Virus record (IMG/VR): IMGVR_UViG_3300046454_000619 | Coordinates: 1 to 20,896 of that record | Length of the DNA: 20,896 nt | Reading direction: 5' to 3' (one strand) | Origin: a virus | In this document: positions 12,238 to 19,933 of the stretch, piece by piece | How positions within the stretch are numbered: position 1 is the first letter of the stretch | How the letters are laid out: each line of letters begins with the position of its first letter | The notes under the pieces: generated by a model | Database searches by the model: none | Told to the model about the DNA's origin: nothing | What the model saw: the letters and a program-made list of their open reading frames with translations, nothing else | Translations under genes and position numbers: made by a program

Positions 12238-12497
12238 AGAAGTTACTCGCCGCGGCCACCCTGGTCGTCCTGACCGGCTGCGTCTCGGCGCCGTCGAACC
12301 TGGCCCGGCTCCAAGCCGAGTGCGCCGTGGCGCCGCTGGCCGAGATTGGAGCCTCATTCATCCCCGTGCCCGGCGCGGGCGGGGTGGCCAACCTGACGAT
12401 CGGCGCGGTGTGCGCCAACACCGCGCTCGTCGCCAACAGCGAGGCGGCGGTCGCGGCGGCCATTCAGGCCATCGCTCAGCGGAAGGCCGCTCCGTGA
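12234..12497 (+). CDS. Small lipoprotein in the lysis cassette
   Basis: 87 residues from ATG 12234, with GGAGGA (12220-12225) about 8 bases upstream. The signal peptide MKKLLAAATLVVLTGC carries a lipobox LTGC, so lipidation at Cys16 is predicted. The mature part is Ala-rich (APLAEIGASFIPVPGAGGVAN...). Its place after holin and membrane peptide genes suggests a role at the outer membrane during lysis, such as an o-spanin-like partner, but the Ala-rich sequence gives no direct proof. The next gene begins at a GTG overlapping this stop. Confidence 0.7.
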   Translation: MKKLLAAATLVVLTGCVSAPSNLARLQAECAVAPLAEIGASFIPVPGAGGVANLTIGAVCANTALVANSEAAVAAAIQAIAQRKAAP

Positions 12498-12916
12498 GGG
12501 CCAGGGGTGTCCTCGCGCTTCTGGCATTGCTTACGGCAGGCGCCGACTTCCCCGACCAGGGCCTTACCCCCGGCGCGGTCGCGACGACCGACGTGCGCGA
12601 GGTCTGCGGCTACGTCGACGGATCGTCGTACTCGCACCGCCACCGCGCGACGACGTGGAAGGTGAGGCGGGAGATCCTCCGCGAGTACGGCGTCCCGCGG
12701 CCGTTCTACGGCGAGATCGACCACCGCGTGCCGCTCTGCCTCGGTGGGGCTGACGCCCCACCGAACCTGTGGCCCCAGGATGACTTCCGCGAGAAGGACC
12801 GGCTCGAGGCCGAGACGTGCCACGCCGTCTGCCGCCACGTAGACCCGATGCCGTTGGACGAGGCTCAGGGGATCTTCCTGGGCGACTGGAGAGACAGGTT
12901 GCGAAGAACTCGCTAG
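12494..12916 (+). CDS. Exported HNH-like nuclease-fold protein
   Basis: 140 residues from GTG 12494 (GTGA overlap with the upstream stop); the longer frame from 12320 would overlap the lipoprotein and is rejected. The first about 17 residues (MRARGVLALLALLTAGA) look like a signal peptide. The core EIDHRVPLCLGGADAPPNLWPQ (D76-H77, N91) is the HNH signature 'ELDH..PL.LGG....NLWPQ', with Cys at 38, 82, 109 and 113 that might form disulfides or bind metal. HNH-like proteins with this core occur in many phages and bacteria. An exported form at the end of a lysis cassette is unusual; the substrate is unknown. Confidence 0.7.
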   Translation: MRARGVLALLALLTAGADFPDQGLTPGAVATTDVREVCGYVDGSSYSHRHRATTWKVRREILREYGVPRPFYGEIDHRVPLCLGGADAPPNLWPQDDFREKDRLEAETCHAVCRHVDPMPLDEAQGIFLGDWRDRLRRTR

Positions 12917-12971: not shown

Positions 12972-14396
12972 TTAGCCCGGCAGCGCCTCGAACTCGTGGA
13001 CCCAGCGGATCACCTGTTCCGAGAACCCGTCCAGGTGGGTCCACCGCTCCCCGTAGCCGACGCCGTTCTGGTAGGCCGCGACGTTGATCAGGTACGCGCG
13101 GGCGGCGCGGGGCGGCGGCACGTGGTCGCGCGACTGCTCGTCGGTGATCACGATCAGCCGGTCCATATCGAGGTTCGCGAGGCTGCCCACCGCCGAGCCC
13201 AGCTGGGTTCCCTGGTGGGGCTGGCTGTCGATGATCTGGCGGATGCCGGATAGCCCCTGAGGAACCTCGTTGTTGAGCGCGACCAGGTGGTTCGAGAACG
13301 TATAGACGCGCACGTCGCCGTGGATCATAACCGCGAGCGCCGCTGCCGCGTCGATGCGGGAGAGGTCCGACTTGGCGGAGATCTTAGCGTCCATGGAGCC
13401 GGAGACGTCGACCAGCACGACCGTCCGGCCCGGTAGGACCGGGAGCTCGGCCACGGCGGCCCTCATGGCCGGGTCGAGGAACGGTACCATCTCCGGGCAC
13501 GCCCGCGCCGCCGCGACGTAGCGGAACGGCAGCACGCGGCGCGCCCCCTTGCGGGCGAGGATCGCGGACGAGACGAGGCTCGGGTCGACCCCGGCCTCGG
13601 TCATGTTCCGCAGGTTGCGCAGCAGCGCCAGATAGCCCAGCTTGCCGTCGCGCAGCTGACCCTCGAAGACGTCCTTCTTGTGCTGCTCCTTGGTGACGCC
13701 CTCGGCGGGGCCGGCGGACAGCCCCACCTCCCACGTGTCGGCGGACTTCACCTCGCCGGCGACGAGCTGTTTCCACAGCGCGGCCTGCTCGGCGTCCCTC
13801 GGCTTGGGGTGGACGAGGAACATCACGTCGCGGCCCTTGATCGGCTGGCCGGCCTCGCCGGAGGGCGAGAAATACTTCGCCAGCGCGTAGCGGTCGAACT
13901 TACCGAACGCCGCGGCCAGGCCCTTCTTGACCTGGGCTGACAGCTTCTTCTTGAGCGCCTTCGGCTCCACGCCGTTGGCCCGCGCGTAGACCGCGAGGAA
14001 CTCGCTCAGCTCGTCGGCGCGTTGGATAGTTTGGGAGATCGTATCGCTTACGATACGAGTTCCCGAACCGGTGCGCGCGAGGACGGCGCACAGCAGCAGC
14101 GGCACGTGCCGCAGGTTGAGGTGCGACCGCGCGTCGATCGCCAGCTGGGCGAGGACGGTCGGGGCCACCTGCCCGGCGAGGTCGGTGATCCGCGCCGCGA
14201 TGTCCTGGCCGGACTCGTAGAAGGTGTCCTCCCACAGGAGGCACGCGCAGACCGAGCGGCGCAGCGCCATTTCGGGCGAGATGAGCGCGGCCGGCGCGCC
14301 CTCGTGGGTGCGTAGCGTGTTGCTGGGCTCGAAGACGCGCGGCGGGGTTCCGCCCTGTGGCGGCAGCGCCGGCTTACGGGAGTTGAGTGCGGCCAT
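12972..14396 (-). CDS. Ro60 orthologue (TROVE domain plus vWA/MIDAS domain)
   Basis: 474 residues from ATG 14396, chosen because AGGAGG (14406-14411 on the complement) sits 9 bases upstream; ATG 14405 is an alternative. The N-terminal about 320 residues are the HEAT-like TROVE ring (PEMALRRSVCACLLWED, HLNLRHVPLLLCAVLA, RADELSEFLAVYARANG, YLALLRNLRNMTEAGV). The C-terminal vWA domain has a complete MIDAS motif DVSGSM (D330, S332, S334) and a later ITDEQS. Family knowledge: Ro60 is a doughnut-shaped protein that binds misfolded RNA ends and Y RNA; in Deinococcus, Y RNA tethers it to PNPase. Three structured RNAs with Y RNA features lie directly upstream on the same strand, behind promoter P1. 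Confidence 0.95.
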   Translation of the reverse strand: MAALNSRKPALPPQGGTPPRVFEPSNTLRTHEGAPAALISPEMALRRSVCACLLWEDTFYESGQDIAARITDLAGQVAPTVLAQLAIDARSHLNLRHVPLLLCAVLARTGSGTRIVSDTISQTIQRADELSEFLAVYARANGVEPKALKKKLSAQVKKGLAAAFGKFDRYALAKYFSPSGEAGQPIKGRDVMFLVHPKPRDAEQAALWKQLVAGEVKSADTWEVGLSAGPAEGVTKEQHKKDVFEGQLRDGKLGYLALLRNLRNMTEAGVDPSLVSSAILARKGARRVLPFRYVAAARACPEMVPFLDPAMRAAVAELPVLPGRTVVLVDVSGSMDAKISAKSDLSRIDAAAALAVMIHGDVRVYTFSNHLVALNNEVPQGLSGIRQIIDSQPHQGTQLGSAVGSLANLDMDRLIVITDEQSRDHVPPPRAARAYLINVAAYQNGVGYGERWTHLDGFSEQVIRWVHEFEALPG

Positions 14397-14448
14397 TGAG
14401 ATCATCCTCCTGGGGTGATCGACCGCTGGGAGAGGCACCGGGGGAACG

Positions 14449-14565
14449 GGCGGTAACGGGTTGTGTGGACCCCCTTGCGGGGGCACGCCGGGATTTGAAC
14501 CCGGACCCACGGCTTGATGGGCCGTTGCTCTACCAAAGAGCTTCGATGCAACCGTAACCTACGCC
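14449..14565 (-). ncRNA. Candidate Y RNA 3 (YrlA-like, with tRNA-like module)
   Basis: The ends pair: 5' GGCGTAGGTTACGGTTG (14565-14549) with 3' CAACCCGTTACCGCC (14463-14449). This gives helices of 3, 3, 4 and 3 bp separated by a GUA bulge on the 5' strand, a U-U mismatch and one bulged C. Inside is a tRNA-like module without acceptor stem: D arm GCTC/GAGC with GG in the loop (14541-14527), anticodon-like arm ACGGC-CCATCAA-GCCGT (14525-14509), canonical T arm CCGGG-TTCAAAT-CCCGG (14504-14488), then a hairpin CCCCC-GCAA-GGGGG with GNRA loop (14483-14470). A D, anticodon and T arm set on a long closing stem is what tRNA-mimicking bacterial Y RNAs show. It ends about 50 bases before the Ro60 start codon. 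Confidence 0.75.
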
Positions 14566-14595
14566 ACCCGGCGTCTATCCAGCGATCGAGGAACA

Positions 14596-14690
14596 AGCGG
14601 AAGCGGTACACCCACCGAGGTGGGTTCTGGGTTCGAACCAGATAGGATGCCCGAGGGCATCTTTTCACCGAAGTACCCGCGTCCTACGCC
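14596..14690 (-). ncRNA. Candidate Y RNA 2 (reduced tRNA-like module)
   Basis: 5' GGCGTAGGACGCGGGTAC (14690-14673) pairs with 3' GTACCGCTTCCGCT (14609-14596) as helices of 3, 3, 4 and 3 bp, with the same GUA bulge, a C-U mismatch at the same place as in copy 3, and one bulged G. The interior has a short D-like arm (TTCGGTGAA), a hairpin GATGCC-CTCG-GGCATC (14661-14646), a canonical T arm TCTGG-TTCGAAC-CCAGA (14642-14626) and an abutting hairpin ACCCAC-CTCG-GTGGGT (14625-14610). It is followed by TGTTCCTCG, matching the 3' flanks of the other copies. Confidence 0.75.
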
Positions 14691-14856: not shown

Positions 14857-15468
14857 TTACGCCAACTCCACGTTATGATACAACCATGAGCCAAAATCTT
14901 CCCGCACGTCGTTCGCGAGGAACTCCAGGCCCGCGCGCAGCAGCTCCGCCGGGGTTGGTGCCCGCGGCGGCTTGAGCGGCCGGAGGCCCGACGCGCGCCG
15001 GGCCGAGTACCGCGGAAGGCTGTCCCGCTTGCGCTTGTTGCACTCGACGCACGCCGACACGATGTTGTCCCACCGCGTCTCGCCACCGCGCGAGCGCGGT
15101 ACGACGTGGTCGTACGTCAGCTCGGCTTCGTCGAATCGCTCCCCGCAGTACTGGCACCTATACCGGTCGCGCAGGAGGATCGAGCGCCGGCAGAACTTCG
15201 GCTCGGCGTCGACGCAGGCGTATGCACGTAGCATCATCACTTTCGGCACGGCGATGGTCGTGCTCGGTGAGCGAAAGAACGCGCCGGGCCACTCCTCGAC
15301 CACGATCGCCTTGTCCAGCCACGCGGCCGTGACGGCGTCGGCGGCCGAGATTAGGTTCAGCGGCCACGTGGATAGCGGACGGCCGTCGGCATTGAGCACC
15401 AGGGTGCGCAGCGTCGTCGGGTGGCGCAGCGAACTTCGCTCTTTGCTCTTAGCCCACGTGTGGATCAT
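14857..15468 (-). CDS. HNH endonuclease (C2C2 zinc type) between tRNA array and Ro60
   Basis: 203 residues. The N-terminal part (TLVLNADGRPLSTWPLNLISAADAV...) is the conserved leader of a common bacterial and phage HNH family. The core has C105-x2-C108, then YDHVVPRSRGGETRWDNIV (D120, H121, N135) and C140-x2-C143 followed by basic residues. Typical roles are nicking or cutting DNA, as a free-standing homing enzyme or in packaging or recombination. The ATG lies two bases after the encoded CCA of tRNA-Thr(CGT), and its only visible ribosome site (AGGAG) lies in that tRNA's acceptor stem. It ends 28 bases upstream of promoter P1. GC-rich like the phage backbone, so probably long resident. Confidence 0.9.
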   Translation of the reverse strand: MIHTWAKSKERSSLRHPTTLRTLVLNADGRPLSTWPLNLISAADAVTAAWLDKAIVVEEWPGAFFRSPSTTIAVPKVMMLRAYACVDAEPKFCRRSILLRDRYRCQYCGERFDEAELTYDHVVPRSRGGETRWDNIVSACVECNKRKRDSLPRYSARRASGLRPLKPPRAPTPAELLRAGLEFLANDVREDFGSWLYHNVELA

Positions 15469-15470
15469 GA

Positions 15471-15545
15471 TGGTGCTCCTGGAGAGAATCGAACTCGTCG
15501 TCTACCGCTTACGAGGCGGTTGTCCTGCCACTGAACGACAAGAGC
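15471..15545 (-). tRNA. tRNA-Thr(CGT)
   Basis: Acceptor GCTCTTG/CAGGAGC, A73 and CCA encoded. Anticodon loop CTCGTAA in a 5-bp stem ACCGC/GCGGT. T loop TTCGATT, but the T stem has only three good pairs. The acceptor strand also holds the ribosome site of the following HNH gene. Confidence 0.85.
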
Positions 15546-15547
15546 GT

Positions 15548-15622
15548 TGGTGCCCCGAGAGGGACTCGAACCCCCGACTCCCCGGTTAAAGGCCGGGAAC
15601 TCTGCCGCTGAGTTACCGAGGC
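15548..15622 (-). tRNA. tRNA-Lys(TTT), C33
   Basis: Acceptor GCCTCGG/TCGGGGC with wobbles, A73, CCA encoded. Anticodon arm CCCGG-CCTTTAA-CCGGG; position 33 is C instead of the near-universal T. T arm GGGGG-TTCGAGT-CCCTC is canonical. Confidence 0.88.
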
Positions 15623-15624
15623 GG

Positions 15625-15701
15625 TGGTGCGCAGTCTCGGATTCGAACCGAGAGGACCCGGTTTTTGAAACCAGGATGTCTACCAGTTGCATCAACTGCG
15701 C
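15625..15701 (-). tRNA. tRNA-Leu(CAA), short variable loop
   Basis: Acceptor GCGCAGT/ACTGCGC, A73, CCA encoded. Anticodon arm CTGGT-TTCAAAA-ACCGG. T arm CTCGG-TTCGAAT-CCGAG. D loop AACTGGTA is leucine-like, but the variable loop is only five bases where bacterial leucine tRNAs have a long arm. Confidence 0.82.
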
Positions 15702-15703
15702 CC

Positions 15704-15780
15704 TGGTGCGCACCGGGAGATTCGAACTCCCACTGGGCCGGGCTTAAACCGGCTGCCTCTACCAGTTGGGCTACGTGCGC
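15704..15780 (-). tRNA. tRNA-Leu(TAA), short variable loop
   Basis: Acceptor GCGCACG/GGTGCGC (last pair mismatched), A73, CCA encoded. Anticodon arm GCCGG-TTTAAGC-CCGGC. T arm GGGAG-TTCGAAT-CTCCC. Variable loop five bases. Close relative of the adjacent CAA copy (same acceptor start and D loop), so probably a duplication. Confidence 0.82.
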
Positions 15781-15782
15781 GG

Positions 15783-15857
15783 TGGTGGTCTCGCCGGGAG
15801 TCGAACCCGGATCTTAGGTTTCGGAGACCTACGCTCGGTCCATCGAGCTGCGAGACT
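15783..15857 (-). tRNA. tRNA-Arg(CCG)
   Basis: Acceptor AGTCTCG/CGAGACC (first pair mismatched), A73, CCA encoded. Anticodon arm TAGGT-CTCCGAA-ACCTA, D arm GCTC/GAGC, T arm CCGGG-TTCGACT-CCCGG. Its 5' 29 bases are also the 3' end of an HNH reading frame. Confidence 0.88.
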
Positions 15858-16293
15858 TAAGTTGTAAGCCAAGCTTAGTGAGTCTGCCTAATGCCCCTTT
15901 ACGGCCGCCTATTTTTAACCGTTCAAACGCTTCTGAACTAATATTCAGAGTTCCCCAAGTATCAGTCTGAGAATGACAGTTTGGGCAAAGACCTTGAAGA
16001 TTTTCACGCGAATTATCGTTTTTATTTCCGTTCAAGTGATCAAGTTCTAACCTAATAGGACGACCATTCCACTCAGTTATACCACAAATTAAGCACGCAT
16101 TTGATTGTTCTTCAAATACACGCTTTCTCCGTTTAGTTCTACCTAGCATTTCAAATGTACGTGGCAGCGTTATACGTTTTATTTTTCTAATCCTACGCGG
16201 GTTATTAAATTTAGCCGAACAAGATTGGCCGCAAAATTTGCCATTTCGATTTTTATAAGGTAATTCTTTACCGCAGTTTTGGCATATTTTCAT
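15829..16293 (-). CDS. HNH homing endonuclease inside the tRNA array, AT-rich
   Basis: 154 residues; ATG preceded by GAGAGG. The N-terminus is a small zinc motif (C4-x2-C7, C21-x3-C25: MKICQNCGKEL...FCGQSC). The HNH core has C67-x2-C70, LELDHLNGNKNDNSRENLQGLCPNCH (D85, H86, N98) and C103-x2-C106-H107. Such proteins are free-standing homing endonucleases common in phages. The DNA is far more AT-rich than the flanking tRNAs, so it is a recent insert. Its last nine codons and stop run into tRNA-Arg(CCG), so its C-terminus is partly dictated by tRNA sequence. No remnants of a split gene are visible. Confidence 0.9.
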   Translation of the reverse strand: MKICQNCGKELPYKNRNGKFCGQSCSAKFNNPRRIRKIKRITLPRTFEMLGRTKRRKRVFEEQSNACLICGITEWNGRPIRLELDHLNGNKNDNSRENLQGLCPNCHSQTDTWGTLNISSEAFERLKIGGRKGALGRLTKLGLQLKSRSSMDRA

Positions 16294-16312
16294 ATATACC
16301 TCTCGATAAAGA

Positions 16313-16384
16313 TGGAACCCCGCCCGAGGATCGAACTCGGCGCTGCTGGCTTAGAAGGCCTGCGTGCGTCCCAGCGCGCGGGGT
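16313..16384 (-). tRNA. tRNA-Arg(TCT), short D arm
   Basis: Acceptor ACCCCGC/GCGGGGT, T73, CCA encoded. Anticodon loop CTTCTAA in CAGGC/GCCAG (one A-A mismatch). T arm CCGAG-TTCGATC-CTCGG. Only 72 bases because the D region is 15 bases with a weak stem. Confidence 0.8.
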
Positions 16385-16386
16385 AT

Positions 16387-16458
16387 TGGCGCCCCCTGAG
16401 AGAGTCGAACTCCCCTTCCCGGGTTCGTAGCCCAGGTGCCGGGTCCGCCGGAGAGGGC
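16387..16458 (-). tRNA. tRNA-Arg(ACG), short D arm
   Basis: Acceptor GCCCTCT/AGGGGGC, G73, CCA encoded. Anticodon arm CTGGG-CTACGAA-CCCGG; A34 would need deamination to inosine by host TadA to read CGC. T arm GGGAG-TTCGACT-CTCTC. 72 bases with a reduced D arm. It directly abuts the next tRNA. Confidence 0.82.
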
Positions 16459-16532
16459 TGGTCGAGCGGACGGGATTTGAACCCGCGTTGGACAGATTGA
16501 AAATCTGTGGTCCTACCTTAGACGACCGCTCG
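16459..16532 (-). tRNA. tRNA-Glu(TTC)
   Basis: Acceptor CGAGCGG/CCGCTCG, A73, CCA encoded. D arm GTCT/GGAC, anticodon arm ACAGA-TTTTCAA-TCTGT, T arm GCGGG-TTCAAAT-CCCGT. Canonical throughout. Confidence 0.92.
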
Positions 16533-16534
16533 GT

Positions 16535-16786
16535 TTACCAGTAGTAGATGTGCGGCTTCTTCTCGACCGGCCAGACGATTCCCTCCGGGTCGCGCCCCTG
16601 CATCACCAGGACGACCGCGGCGCGGGTCCGGCGACGACGCGGCCGGGTGTGAAACGTGATGTCCCAGGCCCGCGGCCACTGGGAGAGCCAGTGGTAGCGG
16701 TCCCAGTCCGGCTGGCGCCGACGATGCTTGTCGCGTCCGCGGCAGTGGCGGGTCGTCCGCGGGTATCCGCGTTTGTAGTTCGCCAT
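16535..16786 (-). CDS. Small very basic phage protein of unknown function
   Basis: 83 residues; ATG preceded by AGGAGG at good spacing. The sequence is rich in Arg, His and Trp (MANYKRGYPRTTRH, HRRRQPDWDRYHWLSQWPRAW, HTRPRRRRTRA, ending KKPHIYYW). The high positive charge suggests nucleic-acid binding, but no named domain is recognised. It sits between tRNA-Glu and a 140-base structured gap and ends two bases before the tRNA start. GC content matches the backbone, and the strong start signals make it a real gene. Confidence 0.75.
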   Translation of the reverse strand: MANYKRGYPRTTRHCRGRDKHRRRQPDWDRYHWLSQWPRAWDITFHTRPRRRRTRAAVVLVMQGRDPEGIVWPVEKKPHIYYW

Positions 16787-16926
16787 GAGTAGCCTCCTGT
16801 GGGTAAGCTATGACATGACGAACCTCCTTTCATGGACGCGGGGCGACCCGAGGCGTTACCCAGAGCCGAGTCACCAAAAGTAACGAGCCGCCCGTCGGCG
16901 ACGGCTCCGGGGCTCTGTCCGCTTGT
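16787..16926 (-). other. Intergenic segment with hairpins and a two-codon leader frame
   Basis: No tRNA found. On the complement there are inverted repeats GAGCCG/CGGCTC with inner CCGTC-GCC-GACGG, AGAGCC/GGCTCT, and GTTAC/GTGAC. Near the downstream gene a strong ribosome site (AAGGAGG) precedes ATGTCATAG, a two-codon frame, before the gene's own AGGAGG. This could be the 5' leader of the 83-residue gene. Confidence 0.4.
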
Positions 16927-17000
16927 TGGTGGGTCCCCGAGGAATCGAACCCCGATCTGGAGTGTGTAGGACTCCGGCCCTGCCATTAGACGAGGGACCC
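16927..17000 (-). tRNA. tRNA-Val(TAC), C33
   Basis: Acceptor GGGTCCC/GGGACCC, A73, CCA encoded. D arm GTCT/AGGGC region with GG; anticodon arm GGAGT-CCTACAC-ACTCC with C at 33. T arm CGGGG-TTCGATT-CCTCG. Confidence 0.88.
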
Positions 17001-17004
17001 TGTA

Positions 17005-17076
17005 TGGCGCCGACGCGGGGACTCGAACCCCGGCTCCCTCGCTTAGGAGGCGTGGGCGCGATCCGTCGCCGTCGGC
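17005..17076 (-). tRNA. tRNA-Arg(CCT), short D arm
   Basis: Acceptor GCCGACG/CGTCGGC, G73, CCA encoded. Anticodon loop CTCCTAA in CACGC/GCGAG (one A-A mismatch). T arm CGGGG-TTCGAGT-CCCCG. 72 bases; D arm GCGA-CGGA-TCGC. Confidence 0.82.
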
Positions 17077-17081
17077 GGTAT

Positions 17082-17159
17082 TGGTCGGAGTGAGAGGATT
17101 CGAACCTCTGGCAACCCGCTTCCAGGGCGGGGACTCTGGCCTGACTGAGCTACACTCCG
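17082..17159 (-). tRNA. tRNA-Pro(TGG), C33
   Basis: Acceptor CGGAGTG/CACTCCG, A73, CCA encoded. D arm GCTC/GAGT, anticodon arm CCCGC-CCTGGAA-GCGGG with C33, T arm AGAGG-TTCGAAT-CCTCT. Confidence 0.88.
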
Positions 17160-17162
17160 TAA

Positions 17163-17237
17163 TGGCGCGCCCGACCGGGATCAAACCGGCCTGACCCGGT
17201 AGACAGCCGGGTGTCCTCTTCAGATGACTACGGGCGC
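17163..17237 (-). tRNA. tRNA-Asp(GTC)
   Basis: Acceptor GCGCCCG/CGGGCGC, G73 (expected for Asp), CCA encoded. Anticodon arm CCCGG-CTGTCTA-CCGGG. T loop TTTGATC has T in place of C56. Confidence 0.88.
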
Positions 17238-17242
17238 TTTGA

Positions 17243-17317
17243 TGGTGCGCGCGGAGGGACTCGAACCCCCGTCCTACTGGTTAAGGGCCAGCAGCTCTGC
17301 CGCTGAGCTACGCACGC
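17243..17317 (-). tRNA. tRNA-Lys(CTT), C33
   Basis: Acceptor GCGTGCG/CGCGCGC, A73, CCA encoded. D arm GCTC/GAGC, anticodon arm GCTGG-CCCTTAA-CCAGT with C33, T arm GGGGG-TTCGAGT-CCCTC. Related to tRNA-Lys(TTT), which also has C33. Confidence 0.88.
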
Positions 17318-17324
17318 GTGAAAC

Positions 17325-17398
17325 TGGTACCCCCACCCTGTACTGACCAGGGATTTCGCGGTTATCGGCCGCGCTCTCTACCATTGAGATATAGGGGC
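17325..17398 (-). tRNA. tRNA-Ile(GAT), C33 and non-canonical T loop
   Basis: Acceptor GCCCCTA/TGGGGGT, A73, CCA encoded. D arm TCTC/GAGA, anticodon arm CGCGG-CCGATAA-CCGCG with C33. T stem CCCTG/CAGGG is perfect but its loop is GTCAGTA, lacking the TTC motif. Confidence 0.78.
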
Positions 17399-17400
17399 GT

Positions 17401-17486
17401 TGGTGGGGAAAGGCTGAGTCGAACAGCGCGCCCGTAGGCGACCGGGTTACAGCCGGCTTACCGCGTCCCGCGGCTGACACTTCCCC
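17401..17486 (-). tRNA. tRNA-Tyr(GTA), class II
   Basis: Acceptor GGGGAAG/TTTCCCC, A73, CCA encoded. Anticodon arm GCCGG-CTGTAAC-CCGGT, long variable arm (CGCC..GGGCG) as expected for bacterial Tyr, T loop TTCGACT. Confidence 0.87.
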
Positions 17487-17487
17487 G

Positions 17488-17562
17488 TGGTGCCGTCGGC
17501 GGGGATCGAACCCGCAGCCTCCCGCTTACCAAGCGGATGCACGCCCATCGTGCTGCGACGGC
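17488..17562 (-). tRNA. tRNA-Thr(GGT)
   Basis: Acceptor GCCGTCG/CGACGGC, A73, CCA encoded. Anticodon arm TCCGC-TTGGTAA-GCGGG, T arm GCGGG-TTCGATC-CCCGC. Canonical. Confidence 0.9.
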
Positions 17563-17563
17563 T

Positions 17564-17653
17564 TGGCGGACAGCCTCGGGCATGATCCGAATCCCCTCTC
17601 GGGGACACACCGCTTAGCAGGCGGGTCCGGCAACCGTACCGGCTGTGCTGTCC
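17564..17653 (-). tRNA. tRNA-Ser(GCT), non-canonical T loop
   Basis: Acceptor GGACAGC/GCTGTCC, G73 (serine), CCA encoded. Anticodon loop CTGCTAA, long variable arm (TCCCC..GGGGA). T stem TTCGG/CCGAG encloses ATCATGC rather than a TTCRA loop. Confidence 0.8.
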
Positions 17654-17657
17654 TAAT

Positions 17658-17746
17658 TGGCGGGCGACCGAGGTCCTGATCCCCATGCCCCGGAGGGCAC
17701 CACCGGTGTTCGAAGCCGGGCCGCGCGCTCGCGCGGTTGATCGCCC
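17658..17746 (-). tRNA. tRNA-Ser(CGA), non-canonical T loop
   Basis: Acceptor GGGCGAT/GTCGCCC, G73, CCA encoded. Anticodon loop TTCGAAC in CCGGC/ACCGG (last pair C-A), long variable arm TGCCC..GGGCA. T stem TGGGG/CCTCG with loop ATCAGGA. Confidence 0.78.
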
Positions 17747-17749
17747 TTA

Positions 17750-17838
17750 TGGAGGAAGGCGGGTGGTGTCGATCCCCACCCCTTTGCGGGGCCACCGGGT
17801 TTCAAAGCCGGGCCGCGAGCCGTCGCGGTTCACCTTCC
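17750..17838 (-). tRNA. tRNA-Ser(TGA), degenerate T arm
   Basis: Acceptor GGAAGGT/GCCTTCC, T73, CCA encoded. Anticodon loop TTTGAAA, long variable arm GGCCCC..GGGGT. The T arm is atypical: GGTGG/CCACC with a nine-base loop. Confidence 0.74.
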
Positions 17839-17996
17839 GTAAACCTTCTTCCCCTGGCTAGGATTATGAGTCCGCGCGCCAGCGCACCAAGCAGGTTTAG
17901 AGCCCACCAGCACTCGGGGCTGACTAGGCCCCTATGGGGAGTTGGGGTGGGACCCTCTGCCCAGTAGTCAGCCGGGCCGCTTTCCCACCGTGCCTC
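17839..17996 (-). other. 158-base unresolved structured gap between two serine tRNAs
   Basis: No complete tRNA fits. On the complement there is a 9-bp inverted repeat GGCTGACTA/TAGTCAGCC, a 7-bp pairing GGTGGGA/TCCCACC, and a part closed by TAAACC/GGTTTA (next to the Ser(TGA) 5' end). That part contains CTGGC/GCCAG and a methionine-like hairpin GGA-CTCATAA-TCC, but has no room for a T arm. It may be decayed tRNA genes or another small RNA. Confidence 0.4.
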
Positions 17997-18085
17997 TGGA
18001 GGATGCCGTCGCTGCCGACGCGAACGCCCTCCCGGGCGCCAACCGGCTTCCGACCGGTGCCGGGGGCCGCCCCGGTTCAGCATCC
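17997..18085 (-). tRNA. tRNA-Ser(GGA), C33, degenerate T arm
   Basis: Acceptor GGATGCT/GGCATCC, T73, CCA encoded. Anticodon arm ACCGG-TCGGAAG-CCGGT with C33, long variable arm GCGCCC..GGGCG. The T arm region lacks a TTCRA loop. Fourth serine acceptor, completing NCU/UCN coverage with the other three. Confidence 0.74.
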
Positions 18086-18091
18086 ATTAAC

Positions 18092-18168
18092 TGGTGCGCA
18101 GGGAGGGAGTCGAACCCTCAAAACTCCACGGTCTGAACGTGGCGACTTTACCGTTTGCCCACCTGCGC
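18092..18168 (-). tRNA. tRNA-Leu(CAG), short variable loop
   Basis: Acceptor GCGCAGG/CCTGCGC, A73, CCA encoded. Anticodon arm CCACG-TTCAGAC-CGTGG, T arm GAGGG-TTCGACT-CCCTC, D loop with ACGGTAAA. Variable loop six bases, no long arm. Confidence 0.83.
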
Positions 18169-18175
18169 GGTGGCT

Positions 18176-18251
18176 TGGTACGCGCGGGGCGACTCGAACG
18201 CCCACTTGCGAGGCCCTCGACCTCGTGCCTCTACCGTTGGGCTACGCGCGC
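18176..18251 (-). tRNA. tRNA-Leu(GAG), C33, short variable loop
   Basis: Acceptor GCGCGCG/CGCGCGT, A73, CCA encoded. Anticodon arm CGAGG-TCGAGGG-CCTCG with C33, T arm GGGCG-TTCGAGT-CGCCC, variable loop five bases. Confidence 0.83.
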
Positions 18252-18256
18252 ATAAT

Positions 18257-18333
18257 TGGTCGTCCCAGGGGGAATCGAACCCACCTCCTCCGCCTTGAGA
18301 GGGCGGCGTCCTAGGCCGGTAGACGATGGGACG
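18257..18333 (-). tRNA. tRNA-Glu(CTC)
   Basis: Acceptor CGTCCCA/TGGGACG, A73, CCA encoded. D arm GTCT region, anticodon arm CCGCC-CTCTCAA-GGCGG, T loop TTCGATT. Abuts tRNA-Gln(TTG). Confidence 0.88.
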
Positions 18334-18407
18334 TGGAAGGCCTCCAGGGATTCGAACCCCGATACACGGCATCAAAAACCGTGGGCTTGCCGTTAGCCGA
18401 GAGGCCC
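18334..18407 (-). tRNA. tRNA-Gln(TTG)
   Basis: Acceptor GGGCCTC/GAGGCCT (first pair G-U), T73, CCA encoded. Anticodon arm ACGGT-TTTTGAT-GCCGT, T arm CGGGG-TTCGAAT-CCCTG. Confidence 0.88.
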
Positions 18408-18551
18408 GTCGTCGCTGGTAGGGGATGCGGGAATCGAACCCACGTCCTCCGGGTCAGAGCCGGATGCACTGGCCGCTGTGCTAATCCCCATCAATTCGTT
18501 GCGCTGCTCCTCGGCCAGGGCCAGGAGGCGCTCGATCTCGTCCCGCGTCAT
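18393..18551 (-). CDS. Short protein (52 aa) running through tRNA-Gln genes
   Basis: ATG 18551 has AGGAGG at ideal spacing. The first 20 codons (MTRDEIERLLALAEEQRNEL) look like a charged amphipathic helix. The frame then reads through the whole of tRNA-Gln(CTG) and stops inside tRNA-Gln(TTG), so the last about 30 residues are dictated by tRNA sequence. It may be a real small helix protein whose natural stop was lost. Function unknown. Confidence 0.4.
   Translation of the reverse strand: MTRDEIERLLALAEEQRNELMGISTAASASGSDPEDVGSIPASPTSDDGPLG
18416..18490 (-). tRNA. tRNA-Gln(CTG)
   Basis: Acceptor TGGGGAT/ATCCCCT with an open first pair (U-U); a weak 1-72 pair is typical of glutamine tRNAs. A73, CCA encoded. 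Anticodon arm TCCGG-CTCTGAC-CCGGA, T arm GTGGG-TTCGATT-CCCGC. A short reading frame runs through it. Confidence 0.88.
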
Positions 18552-18666
18552 CGCGCCCTCCTCTCAAGATCGTGTTGAACCGGCACGGGCCTCCGGAGGC
18601 CGGGCATCGGAGCTCGTGGAGCTCCGGGTCGTAGGTCGCGCATGGCGTTAGGAGGTCCGACGGCAT
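18481..18666 (-). CDS. Short Cys-containing protein (61 aa) in the tRNA array
   Basis: ATG 18666 is preceded by GGAGGT at good spacing; an upstream in-frame ATG at 18699 lies within tRNA-Thr(TGT) and is unlikely. The sequence MPSDLLTPCATYDPELHELRCPASGGPCRFN contains three cysteines that could bind zinc. The second half overlaps the next short frame out of register and is Gly/Arg/Pro-rich. Function unknown. Confidence 0.4.
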   Translation of the reverse strand: MPSDLLTPCATYDPELHELRCPASGGPCRFNTILRGGRDDAGRDRAPPGPGRGAAQRIDGD

Positions 18667-18683
18667 ATCGCTTACCTCCGAAT

Positions 18684-18760
18684 TGGTGCCCACGGTCACG
18701 ATTCGAACGGACGACTTCCGGCTTACAAAACCGGCGCTCTGCCGACTGAGCTACGCGGGC
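18684..18760 (-). tRNA. tRNA-Thr(TGT)
   Basis: Acceptor GCCCGCG/CGTGGGC, A73, CCA encoded. D arm GCTC/GAGC, anticodon arm CCGGT-TTTGTAA-GCCGG, T loop TTCGAAT with an imperfect stem. Third threonine isoacceptor. Confidence 0.87.
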
Positions 18761-18766
18761 GAATAA

Positions 18767-18931
18767 GCATACGCGGGCTACGCGATGGGACTTTCATGCG
18801 TCGTGTAATTCCAAGCGGATTAGATGGTACTCTTAGGCCGCCCTCGTGCCCCGCAGTCTCCGCTCACCGGGGTACCGCCCGTACGGACAACCGCTTCCCT
18901 GTACACGCTCAGGGCGTAGCCCACGTATGCT
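18767..18931 (-). ncRNA. 165-base structured RNA closed by a 17-bp helix, unknown type
   Basis: GCATACGTGGGCTACGC (18931-18915) pairs with GCGTAGCCCGCGTATGC (18783-18767). The single imperfect pair is a G-U wobble on the minus strand but a C-A mismatch on the plus strand, which points to a minus-strand RNA. Inside are CCCTG/CAGGG, AAGCGG/CCGCTT, GGTAC/GTACC and CCCCG/CGGGG pairings. It lies tightly between tRNA-His and tRNA-Thr(TGT) and does not fit a tRNA, tmRNA or RNase P RNA by eye. Confidence 0.55.
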
Positions 18932-18934
18932 TAC

Positions 18935-19010
18935 TGGGGTGAGGTGCGGGTGCTGGCCCCGCTGCTTCGCCTTCACAGGGCGACGTGTCCTCTGGTTCAC
19001 TAACCTCACC
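18935..19010 (-). tRNA. tRNA-His(GTG), encoded G-1, non-canonical T loop
   Basis: Extra 5' G pairs with C73, the histidine identity element: GGTGAGGT/ACCTCACC then CCA. Anticodon arm TCGCC-CTGTGAA-GGCGA, D arm GTG/CAC. T stem GCGGG/CCCGC is perfect but the loop is GCCAGCA. Confidence 0.82.
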
Positions 19011-19011
19011 A

Positions 19012-19084
19012 TGGAGCCACGCTGGCGAATCGAACGCCTTGTCCCGGGTTGCAACCGAGCGCCTCTCCATTTGGCTTGCGCGGC
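19012..19084 (-). tRNA. tRNA-Cys(GCA)
   Basis: Acceptor GCCGCGC/GCGTGGC, T73 (expected for Cys), CCA encoded. D arm GCC/GGC, anticodon arm CTCGG-TTGCAAC-CCGGG, T loop TTCGATT. Confidence 0.88.
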
Positions 19085-19085
19085 T

Positions 19086-19158
19086 TGGCACCGGCGGAGC
19101 GGAATTGAACCCTCCTGCAGGGGTTTGGAGTCCCTGATGTTCACCAGAACGCGCCGGT
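19086..19158 (-). tRNA. tRNA-Trp(CCA)
   Basis: Acceptor ACCGGCG/CGCCGGT, G73 (expected for Trp), CCA encoded. Anticodon loop CTCCAAA in AGGGA/CCCCT (last pair A-C). T loop TTCAATT, T stem with one bulged base. Confidence 0.87.
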
Positions 19159-19161
19159 AAT

Positions 19162-19237
19162 TGGCTCCCATCCCAGGTACCGCCCCTGGCCGCATCGGAT
19201 TAACAGTCCGCGCCGTTCGCTTGCTCGGTCGATGGGA
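19162..19237 (-). tRNA. tRNA-Asn(GTT), non-canonical D and T loops
   Basis: Acceptor TCCCATC/GATGGGA, G73, CCA encoded. Anticodon arm GCGGA-CTGTTAA-TCCGA. T stem CCAGG/CCTGG perfect with loop GGCGGTA. The D arm CCG/CGG has loop AGCAAGCGAA without the usual GG, so both tertiary-contact partners changed together. Confidence 0.8.
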
Positions 19238-19342
19238 ATGAAACTGTTGAGTGAGAATTTTACATAGCCCCCACTCACGGCTCTCATCGCGACGCTTCAA
19301 CCCAAGCTATCCTAGGTCCGGGGTGTATACGAGTCGCGAAAC
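19238..19342 (-). other. 105-base gap with short hairpins
   Basis: No tRNA or gene recognised. On the complement TCGCGAC/GTCGCGA pairs over about 40 bases, and GTGAG/CTCAC encloses ATGTAAAATT. It may be spacer, a processing element or a decayed tRNA. Confidence 0.35.
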
Positions 19343-19417
19343 TGGAGCGGACGGCGGGAATCGAACCCGCTACCGGGTGCTTGGAAGGCACCGACTCTGC
19401 CAATGAGTTACGCCCGC
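19343..19417 (-). tRNA. tRNA-Gly(TCC)
   Basis: Acceptor GCGGGCG/CGTCCGC, T73, CCA encoded. Anticodon arm GGTGC-CTTCCAA-GCACC, T arm GCGGG-TTCGATT-CCCGC. Canonical. Confidence 0.9.
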
Positions 19418-19418
19418 G

Positions 19419-19494
19419 TGGTGCCGAGACCTGGGATCGCACCAGGATGTCGCCGCCTTCAACGGCGCGCGAGGACTACCTTTGCTATCTCGGC
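19419..19494 (-). tRNA. tRNA-Phe(GAA)
   Basis: Acceptor GCCGAGA/TCTCGGC, A73, CCA encoded. Anticodon arm CGCCG-TTGAAGG-CGGCG. T stem CCTGG/CCAGG with loop TGCGATC, in which position 55 is G instead of T. Confidence 0.87.
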
Positions 19495-19499
19495 GAAAT

Positions 19500-19576
19500 T
19501 GGAGGCAGGGAGCGGATTCGAACCGCTGACCTCGAGGTTATGGGCCTCGCGCGCTGCCAGGCTGCGCCACCCTGCG
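19500..19576 (-). tRNA. Initiator tRNA-fMet(CAT), C33
   Basis: Closely follows bacterial initiator tRNA: CGCAGGGTGG start, GCAGCCTGGCAGC D arm, and an unpaired C1-C72. Anticodon arm CGAGG-CCCATAA-CCTCG has C33, and only two of the three usual G-C pairs at the loop end. T arm AGCGG-TTCGAAT-CCGCT, T73, CCA encoded. Confidence 0.82.
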
Positions 19577-19584
19577 TCAAAATC

Positions 19585-19660
19585 TGGTCCCGGTGGGTGG
19601 AGTCGAACCAACCGACCTAGCCGTTATGAGCGGCCCGATCTTCCGCTGATCTACACCGGG
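19585..19660 (-). tRNA. tRNA-Met(CAT), elongator (or Ile2)
   Basis: Acceptor CCCGGTG/CACCGGG, A73, CCA encoded. Anticodon arm GGCCG-CTCATAA-CGGCT. T loop TTCGACT. With a paired first position it is not an initiator; a lysidine-modified isoleucine tRNA for AUA cannot be excluded by sequence. Confidence 0.85.
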
Positions 19661-19661
19661 G

Positions 19662-19735
19662 TGGAGCGGCCATGGGAAATCGAATCCCACCCTTCTCGTT
19701 GGCAACGAGATGCTCGACCTCCGAGCTGTGGCCGC
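19662..19735 (-). tRNA. tRNA-Gly(GCC)
   Basis: Acceptor GCGGCCA/TGGCCGC, T73, CCA encoded. D arm GCTC/GAGC, anticodon arm TCTCG-TTGCCAA-CGAGA, T arm TGGGA-TTCGATT-TCCCA. Confidence 0.92.
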
Positions 19736-19739
19736 AATT

Positions 19740-19814
19740 TGGTGGAGAACGAGGGAATCGAACCCTCATGACGCGATCTTGCAAGGATCGCCGCCGCCCC
19801 AGCAGCCGTTCCCC
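19740..19814 (-). tRNA. tRNA-Ala(TGC)
   Basis: Acceptor GGGGAAC/GTTCTCC, A73, CCA encoded. Anticodon arm CGATC-CTTGCAA-GATCG, T arm GAGGG-TTCGATT-CCCTC. First tRNA of the array after the leader; the canonical G3-U70 pair of alanine is present (third pair G-T). Confidence 0.9.
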
Positions 19815-19816
19815 GT

Positions 19817-19933
19817 GTTGACTTACGCCTACTGTCAGGTGAATGGCTGTACCTGGCGCATTCTTAGCCGCAGGATTCGCGTGGGTCATCACTTGCTCAC
19901 CTGCAGTTACGCCGACAGTAGGCGTAAGTCAAC
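19817..19933 (-). ncRNA. 117-base hairpin RNA closed by a perfect 20-bp helix
   Basis: GTTGACTTACGCCTACTGTC (19933-19914 read on the complement) pairs perfectly with GACAGTAGGCGTAAGTCAAC (19836-19817). An inner AGGTGA/TCACCT helix encloses about 50 bases with a possible GTG/CAC arm. It stands two bases before tRNA-Ala. It could be an RNase III processing substrate, an independent small RNA, or a tRNA-like element; no family is recognised. Confidence 0.55.

Follow-up and report, generated by a model that had tools for sequence, protein, structure and literature searches.

Matched substitutions at the tRNA elbow in a phage tRNA array and its relatives

A tRNA array with atypical elbows

IMG/VR virus record IMGVR_UViG_3300046454_000619 (20896 bases, analysed whole and called the window here) contains tail genes, a Ro60-like gene, an HNH gene and, on the minus strand, an array of about 36 transfer RNA (tRNA) genes (15471-19814), eight of which have an elbow, the contact region of D loop and T loop, that departs from the canonical form. 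The count is partly by eye: Ile, Tyr, Arg(TCT), four Ser, His, Trp and Asn are added to the 27 tRNAs called by ARAGORN, from which a 'Pro' at 14479-14568 is excluded. The HNH endonuclease gene adjoining the array (14857-15468, minus strand; PF14279, E 4e-16) was our hook for finding relatives, in which this type of locus, a dense same-strand tRNA cluster, conserves its gene order and its HNH neighbour. The closest relatives show a near-identical array order (Ala, Gly, Met, Met, Phe, Gly, Asn, Trp, Cys, His, Thr, Gln, Gln, Glu and onwards).

G18, G19, T54, pseudouridine 55 (Psi55), C56 and A58 are the textbook near-invariant bases of the elbow. According to the available text of PMC7912444 and PMC4810234, the 54-58 pair closes the T loop and the 18-55 and 19-56 pairs join the D and T loops; the latter also describes the 19-56 pair as presenting a flat surface for stacking by the ribosome and other partners. 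Set against the canonical elbow (T54-T55-C56-R57-A58 with G18-G19), the eight tRNAs depart at one or more positions each. A preliminary description of this DNA had quoted six of these T loops, and all six are found at their places on the minus strand, with the letters as quoted. It had also described well-paired stems and an encoded CCA, which is borne out by a structure-only scan that requires the acceptor, anticodon and T helices and T33 and is blind to the letters of the T and D loops. The scan recovered five of the six, with acceptor/anticodon/T pairs of 7/5/5 in His and Phe and 7/4/5 in Asn, Ser(GCT) and Ser(CGA), and with CCA next in each. The sixth, Ile, was missed because it has C, not T, at position 33, and was recovered by Rfam (RF00005, 17328-17398, 45.6 bits versus a cut-off of 29). 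Cloverleaf helices are intact, with CCA, in Ile (from sequence and Rfam) and also in Asp, the sixth departure supplied by the scan; the eighth, Ser(GGA), was recognised by eye. As a rough gauge of chance matches, the same scan at a lower score threshold gave 22 CCA-bearing matches on the array strand versus 2 on the opposite strand.

G54-G58 with A60 occurs in tRNA-Ile(GAT) (17328-17399; GTCAGTA), whose D loop has GG, in tRNA-His(GTG) (18939-19009; GCCAGCA, with C55), in tRNA-Asn(GTT) (19166-19237; GGCGGTA, with G55) and in tRNA-Ser(GGA) (18001-18085; GTCGGCA), all of these and the following being on the minus strand. The Ile T loop is identical in the Ile of the syntenic locus L050 (L-numbers denote fetched loci). 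The Asn D loop has AG and lacks GG, as had been described (CCGAGCAAGCGAACGG); L051 and L055 share both loops, and L053, L054, L056 and L057 are canonical at this tRNA. Ser(GGA), with one T-stem mismatch, stands outside the counted sets. tRNA-Ser(GCT) (17568-17653) has ATCATGC (A54-T58), the same anticodon slot carrying ATCGTGC in L052 and L072, and tRNA-Ser(CGA) (17662-17746) has ATCAGGA (A54-G58, A60) with a D loop without GG, thereby breaking the rule given below. tRNA-Phe(GAA) (19423-19494; TGCGATC) has G55 and a D loop in which both AG and GG are present. Finally, tRNA-Asp(GTC) (17167-17237; TTTGATC) combines T56 with GA in the D loop, giving A19-T56 for G19-C56; L050 has the same swap, and L053 and L076 have T19-A56. 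The departures in Asp and Ser(GGA) are additional to those in the preliminary description. A further Ser(TGA) at 17754-17838 looks odd, with an ambiguous T arm, and is not counted.

Covariation of T loop and D loop in related phages

Related loci were collected with an HNH protein query (18 loci), a profile of 10 HNH sequences (80, partly the same loci), a Ro60 query (40 further loci) and a profile search of bacterial genome contigs (80 more, with arrays in Bradyrhizobium and others); relatives reached with a tail-protein query had no tRNAs in the portion fetched. The main set drops tRNAs without encoded CCA, locus-strands with fewer than 6 such tRNAs and duplicate sequences, and the strict set drops T stems with fewer than 5/5 pairs, tRNAs with fewer than 6 acceptor pairs and those with a D-loop core of fewer than 3 bases. 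The strict filter reduced 812 unique tRNAs to 701 in the first set and 207 to 190 in the genome-contig set, itself losing some atypical Ser tRNAs, and left a combined strict set of 891 tRNAs from 52 loci.

At positions 54 and 58 these 891 tRNAs show T-A in 817, G-G in 26, A-A in 20, A-T in 19 and other combinations in 9, with no case of G54-A58. A pyrimidine occupies position 60 in 792 of the 817 T-A loops, whereas A is found there in 25 of the 26 G-G and 18 of the 20 A-A loops. The D-loop core likewise varies with bases 55 and 56. T55-C56 tRNAs have GG in 769/797 (AG being present as background in 120/797 cores), and G55-C56 tRNAs have AG in 48/48 and GG in 4/48. GA accompanies T55-T56 (14/15), GT accompanies T55-A56 (5/5), and AA, a double swap, is found in 2 of the 3 tRNAs with G55 and T56.

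In the first loci the odd T loops had fallen into classes, the D loop being altered along with the class, and the rule that the D-loop dinucleotide follows bases 55-56 was written down before two further batches (L071-L136 and L137-L216) were fetched. It holds for 70 of the 80 non-T55-C56 loops of the 701-tRNA strict set (shuffle mean 33.4, standard deviation 3.8; 0/10000 shuffles), that is, for 36/41 fetched before it was fixed and 34/39 fetched after (L071-L136; shuffle mean 17.9, standard deviation 2.6; 0/10000). In the genome contigs (L137-L216) it holds for 13/14. Where a fully paired 4-bp D stem and a 7-base loop fix bases 18 and 19 by position (n=178), the 19-56 pair is G-C in 172 and A-T in 6, so that all 178 are Watson-Crick and 0/178 are mismatched; the 18-55 pair is G-T in 165, G-C in 6, A-G in 5, C-T in 1 and T-T in 1, with no G-G and no A-T.

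The odd loops are therefore not due to chance, since they belong to a few classes that are seen again in other phages and that vary together with the D loop. The covariation shows, indirectly, that three tertiary contacts, 19-56, 18-55 and 54-58, change together in these related phages, and the earlier suggestion that the D-T contact has changed as a unit receives strong support. Random decay of these arms was looked for in the relatives and not found.

As a chromosomal control we took 40 lower-scoring tRNA regions, from 122 matches listed, in Brevundimonas and Bradyrhizobium genomes outside the Bradyrhizobium array. Two dropped out (L238 gave no structure, L256 a poor match without CCA), and 37 of the other 38 have TTCNA and GG. 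The exception, a Brevundimonas Arg(CCT) (L229; G002:C4:235152-235265), has TTGGA and GC in the D loop, a compensated C19-G56 swap in a cell. Among named phages, for which inclusion was looser (CCA or full helices), 15 of 227 tRNAs have a non-T55-C56 loop; 10 of the 15 fit the rule, and several misfits look like scanner false positives. Alternative elbows are carried by the cultured phages S-CBWM1 (Synechococcus), OC (Ochrobactrum phage vB_OspM_OC), Gurke (Brevundimonas phage vB_BpoS-Gurke), Papperlapapp and DSS3_MAL1 and are therefore no artefact of metagenome assembly. In Gurke they are Val(GAC) and Leu(CAG), both combining G55 with AG. Five of the 12 phage stretches (TM30, Atu_ph07, GodonK, Mx1 and RcXuper) show none, and the single odd matches seen in PA5oct and in CcrColossus appear to be errors of the scanner.

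Decoding, modification and origin of the altered elbows

Of the 132 alternative-elbow tRNAs that the main classes comprise over all loci, 128 have an anticodon detected only once in their array, which argues for decoding use. Within the window's phage family one and the same anticodon slot holds a canonical tRNA in some members and an alternative one in others: the Asp slot carries TTTGATC, TTTGACT, GTCGGAA, TTAGATC, GGCGGCA, GGCAGCA, TTAGATT or a canonical loop, the His slot has seven alternative and four canonical entries, and the Asn slot has GGCGGTA in three phages and a canonical loop in eight. GUN anticodons are in modest excess (24/88 vs 89/613), as one of many classes looked at and without correction. 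Arrays also include tRNAs with a CTA (amber) anticodon (L050 9345-9418, L054 and L075), that of L050 having a GGCGGCA T loop and an AG D loop. An origin by anticodon shift, with one odd lineage copied to many anticodons, finds no support in a nearest-neighbour test on the stems, which gave no sign of a separate lineage: the nearest tRNA from another locus has the same amino acid for 78/141 atypical and 91/150 sampled canonical tRNAs, although short stems make this a weak test. Coupling of 54-58 with 15-48, for which positions are approximate, gave no clear result, and an HNH tree for counting independent switches left 10 of 17 inner branches open.

From these sequence comparisons we consider it very probable that the phage tRNAs concerned are genuine and in use, and that compensatory substitutions, not decay, have rewritten their elbow. 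The T-A pair at 54-58 gives way to G-G, A-A or A-T, and in the G-G and A-A classes base 60 turns from a pyrimidine into A; G-T at 18-55 becomes A-G (or G-C); and G-C at 19-56 becomes A-T or T-A, rarely C-G. Each altered tRNA would keep its L-shaped fold, given that recognition of the elbow by the ribosome and RNase P relies mainly on stacking against the flat 19-56 pair and not on sequence. A matched swap would preserve this face, and function could survive. A change on one side only should break it, and such uncompensated changes are rare in our data. The altered tRNAs would then supply decoding during infection.

Several points weigh against this reading. Ten of the 80 non-T55-C56 loops in the 701-tRNA set do not fit the rule. 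Three of them (L025 Ala, L075 Gln and L087 Pro) are apparently false positives of the scanner, and in L052 Arg and L053 Lys the D loop is shorter than the test requires. Three G54-C55-C56-G58 tRNAs (window His, L076 His and L077 Glu) have AG in the core where GG is predicted, and the remaining two are L055 Glu (ATTGTTA) and L083 Cys (GGTAGCA). What partners C55 thus varies with the 54-58 class, and no single simple rule holds for this base. GG is lacking from the tested core in 20/621 T55-C56 tRNAs of the 701 set and 28/797 of the 891 set, partly in very short D loops. A few tRNAs look uncompensated (window Ser(CGA), L071 Thr and L111 Lys), the window Ile has lost T33 as well, and A54-T58 has no obvious isosteric relation to T54-A58.

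The proposal in the preliminary description that such tRNAs would escape T54 and Psi55 modification stands in part. Escape is certain only where the letter is no longer T, which among the six quoted tRNAs applies to position 54 in Ile, His, Asn and both Ser and to position 55 only in His, Asn and Phe. To judge from its letters, the G54-G55-C56-R-G58/A18 type certainly cannot carry T54, Psi55, 1-methyladenosine 58 (m1A58) or 2'-O-methylguanosine 18 (Gm18). Less surely, the change may have been kept as tolerable in tRNAs needed only briefly, and may have been partly favoured by removing tags for host modification enzymes or tRNA-attacking defences. For a phage, as distinct from a cell, the marks may matter little over one infection, or their loss may help against host enzymes. 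The structural claim is strong; its driver we infer to be either evasion of elbow-reading enzymes or tolerated drift, and drift with strong selection on shape and a selected role in evasion can both be true.

Relaxed constraint alone, which we regard as an even call, would involve weak selection, slightly bad intermediates and compensatory repair, the new elbows bringing no benefit; this is compatible with the structural reading. It fits the scatter of alternative elbows over amino acids (16 for G55, 12 for G54-G58) and their variable share per array, from 0/21 (L057) to 10/17 (L053). Against it, intermediates are rare, with the 19-56 mismatches at 0/178, and identical seven-base loops (GGCGGTA, GTCAGTA) recur in different isoacceptors, but neither observation excludes drift under strong structural selection.

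Equally compatible with the structural reading, and possible although we lean against it, is selection of the new elbows for retaining the shape while hiding the tRNA from host enzymes that read the elbow sequence (TruB, TrmA, TrmH, the m1A58 enzyme or tRNA-targeting defence effectors). This predicts a change that keeps shape and loses sequence, as seen in the covariation and exact-register sets, and a TruB_N or TrmA-type domain is found in 0 of 15 related virus records, many of them fragments. Phage tRNAs are reported, in the available part of PMC10264068, to escape anticodon nucleases by changes in the anticodon loop. However, the accessible portions of the literature searched mention no defence nuclease reading bases 54-58, and Cas12a3 is described in the available text of PMC12851939 as touching the T-arm backbone. 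Nor is there a tie to one anticodon class beyond the modest GUN excess.

We think it unlikely that the altered tRNAs are non-translational, serving as decoys or for special purposes like the staphylococcal cell-wall tRNA-Gly, a type marked by altered T loops. The resemblance to these staphylococcal tRNAs speaks for this, and their being the sole anticodon copy in 128/132 cases and alternating with canonical tRNAs in the same slot speaks against it. Decay into pseudogenes with broken elbows is very improbable, though it might apply to individual genes. In its favour, gene finders overlook several of these tRNAs, and the window Ser(CGA) and Ile have extra oddities, but full helices, CCA, covariation, success on held-out loci and unique anticodon slots stand against it, and general decay, with random loss of pairing and motifs, is ruled out by the covariation, the held-out rule, the exact register and the slots.

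Compensatory rewriting of the elbow can be placed beside several known systems. The phage tRNAs share with canonical bacterial tRNA (RF00005) the acceptor, anticodon and T helices, the seven-base T loop, mostly C56, the encoded CCA and their array neighbours, and differ at 54/58, 55/18, 56/19 and 60. Zagryadskaya and Steinberg (2003, 2004) reportedly made laboratory selections from suppressor tRNA libraries with randomised elbow bases, at 54-58, 18-55 and 19-56; the phage set concerns the same contacts and would be a natural counterpart. In the available text of PMC7566577 and PMC7912444, A54-A58 with purine 60 is described for eukaryotic AGC tRNA-Ala and A54-A58 for eukaryotic initiator tRNA-Met. 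The phage A-A class shares this pair and has A60 in 18/20 and a purine at 60 in 20/20. It differs in occurring in phages of bacteria and in many isoacceptors, alongside the extra G-G and A-T classes and the 18-55 and 19-56 changes. These initiator-like T loops occur in 20 tRNAs of relatives and in none of the window's listed tRNAs. The phage tRNAs described in the available part of PMC10264068 similarly depart from host tRNAs at sites read by an enzyme, although there in the anticodon loop; the terms T-loop, D-loop, T-arm and elbow are absent from its text. Type II mitochondrial tRNAs and tRNA-Pyl also do without the G18, G19 and TPsiC motifs (PMC7609411, available text), but there the D-T contact is lost or replaced, whereas here it would be kept by matched changes. 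In the open-licence PMC literature, as far as its text is available, we found no report of covariation at 18-55 and 19-56 in phage tRNAs or of the G-G and A-T classes.

We tentatively propose, with less than even confidence, that phage arrays draw on a small interchangeable set of elbow codes, which preserve the shape of the tRNA and take away the bases that nearly all elbow-specific cell enzymes read, as stealth against host modification and tRNA-attacking immunity, and that they offer natural covariation proof of near-invariant tertiary pairs. Such pairs hardly vary in cells and are thus invisible to comparison there. The arrays would amount to a natural mutation experiment on which elbow pairs can replace which across many isoacceptors, one that separates the needs of the fold from those of the enzymes and directly tests why cells hardly vary these bases. 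They also suggest an unrecognised layer of phage tRNA evasion.

Gene finders and other features of the window

The expectation that gene finders may overlook such tRNAs is borne out mainly for the G54-G58 class, of which ARAGORN overlaps 7/26, and not for T56 (13/14) or A54-T58 (16/19); the overlap is 719/750 for canonical tRNAs, 22/30 for G55-C56 and 14/20 for A54-A58. In the window, neither ARAGORN (27 calls) nor Rfam (42 matches up to E=10) lists His, Asn, Ser(GCT) or Ser(CGA). The S-CBWM1 record leaves a Ser (12446-12526; ATCGGCA) and a Glu (13208-13279; GTCAGCA) unannotated and annotates its T56 and A54-T58 tRNAs. Counts of phage tRNAs from a standard finder are thus too low for one class.

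The Ro60/TROVE-vWA gene lies at 12972-14510 (minus strand; PF05731, E 3e-8). A link of the odd elbows with this gene was considered, but TROVE is found in 6/15 related virus records, and L052 and L053, which are rich in odd elbows, are without it in the sequence examined. Adjoining this gene, the 'tRNA-Pro' called by ARAGORN (14479-14568, minus strand) has an improper anticodon loop, and its Rfam match is without the acceptor stem ends (6-65 of 71); it probably represents a Y-RNA-like RNA that includes a tRNA-like portion. The phage Ro60 loci L009, L010, L017 and L029 likewise have a single tRNA call upstream of their Ro60 match. The fold of 14440-14660 is not clearly better than that of shuffled sequences (z -1.5).

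Two further genes likely encode homing endonucleases: a GIY-YIG gene (PF01541; 3125-3949, plus strand) among the tail genes, and a gene within the array (15829-16293, minus strand) that weakly matches HNH. Bacterial tRNA-Leu normally has a long variable arm; the Leu tRNAs of the array (15625-15780 and 18092-18168, minus strand) have short variable loops of 5-6 bases, and those of L052 have 13-14 bases. By eye, a 120-base stretch of the array to which no tRNA is assigned (17859-17979, minus strand) contains a 9-bp inverted repeat and CTCTAAA, and a 19-base inverted repeat (about 19818-19836 and 19913-19931, some 75 bases apart) lies directly upstream of the first tRNA of the array.

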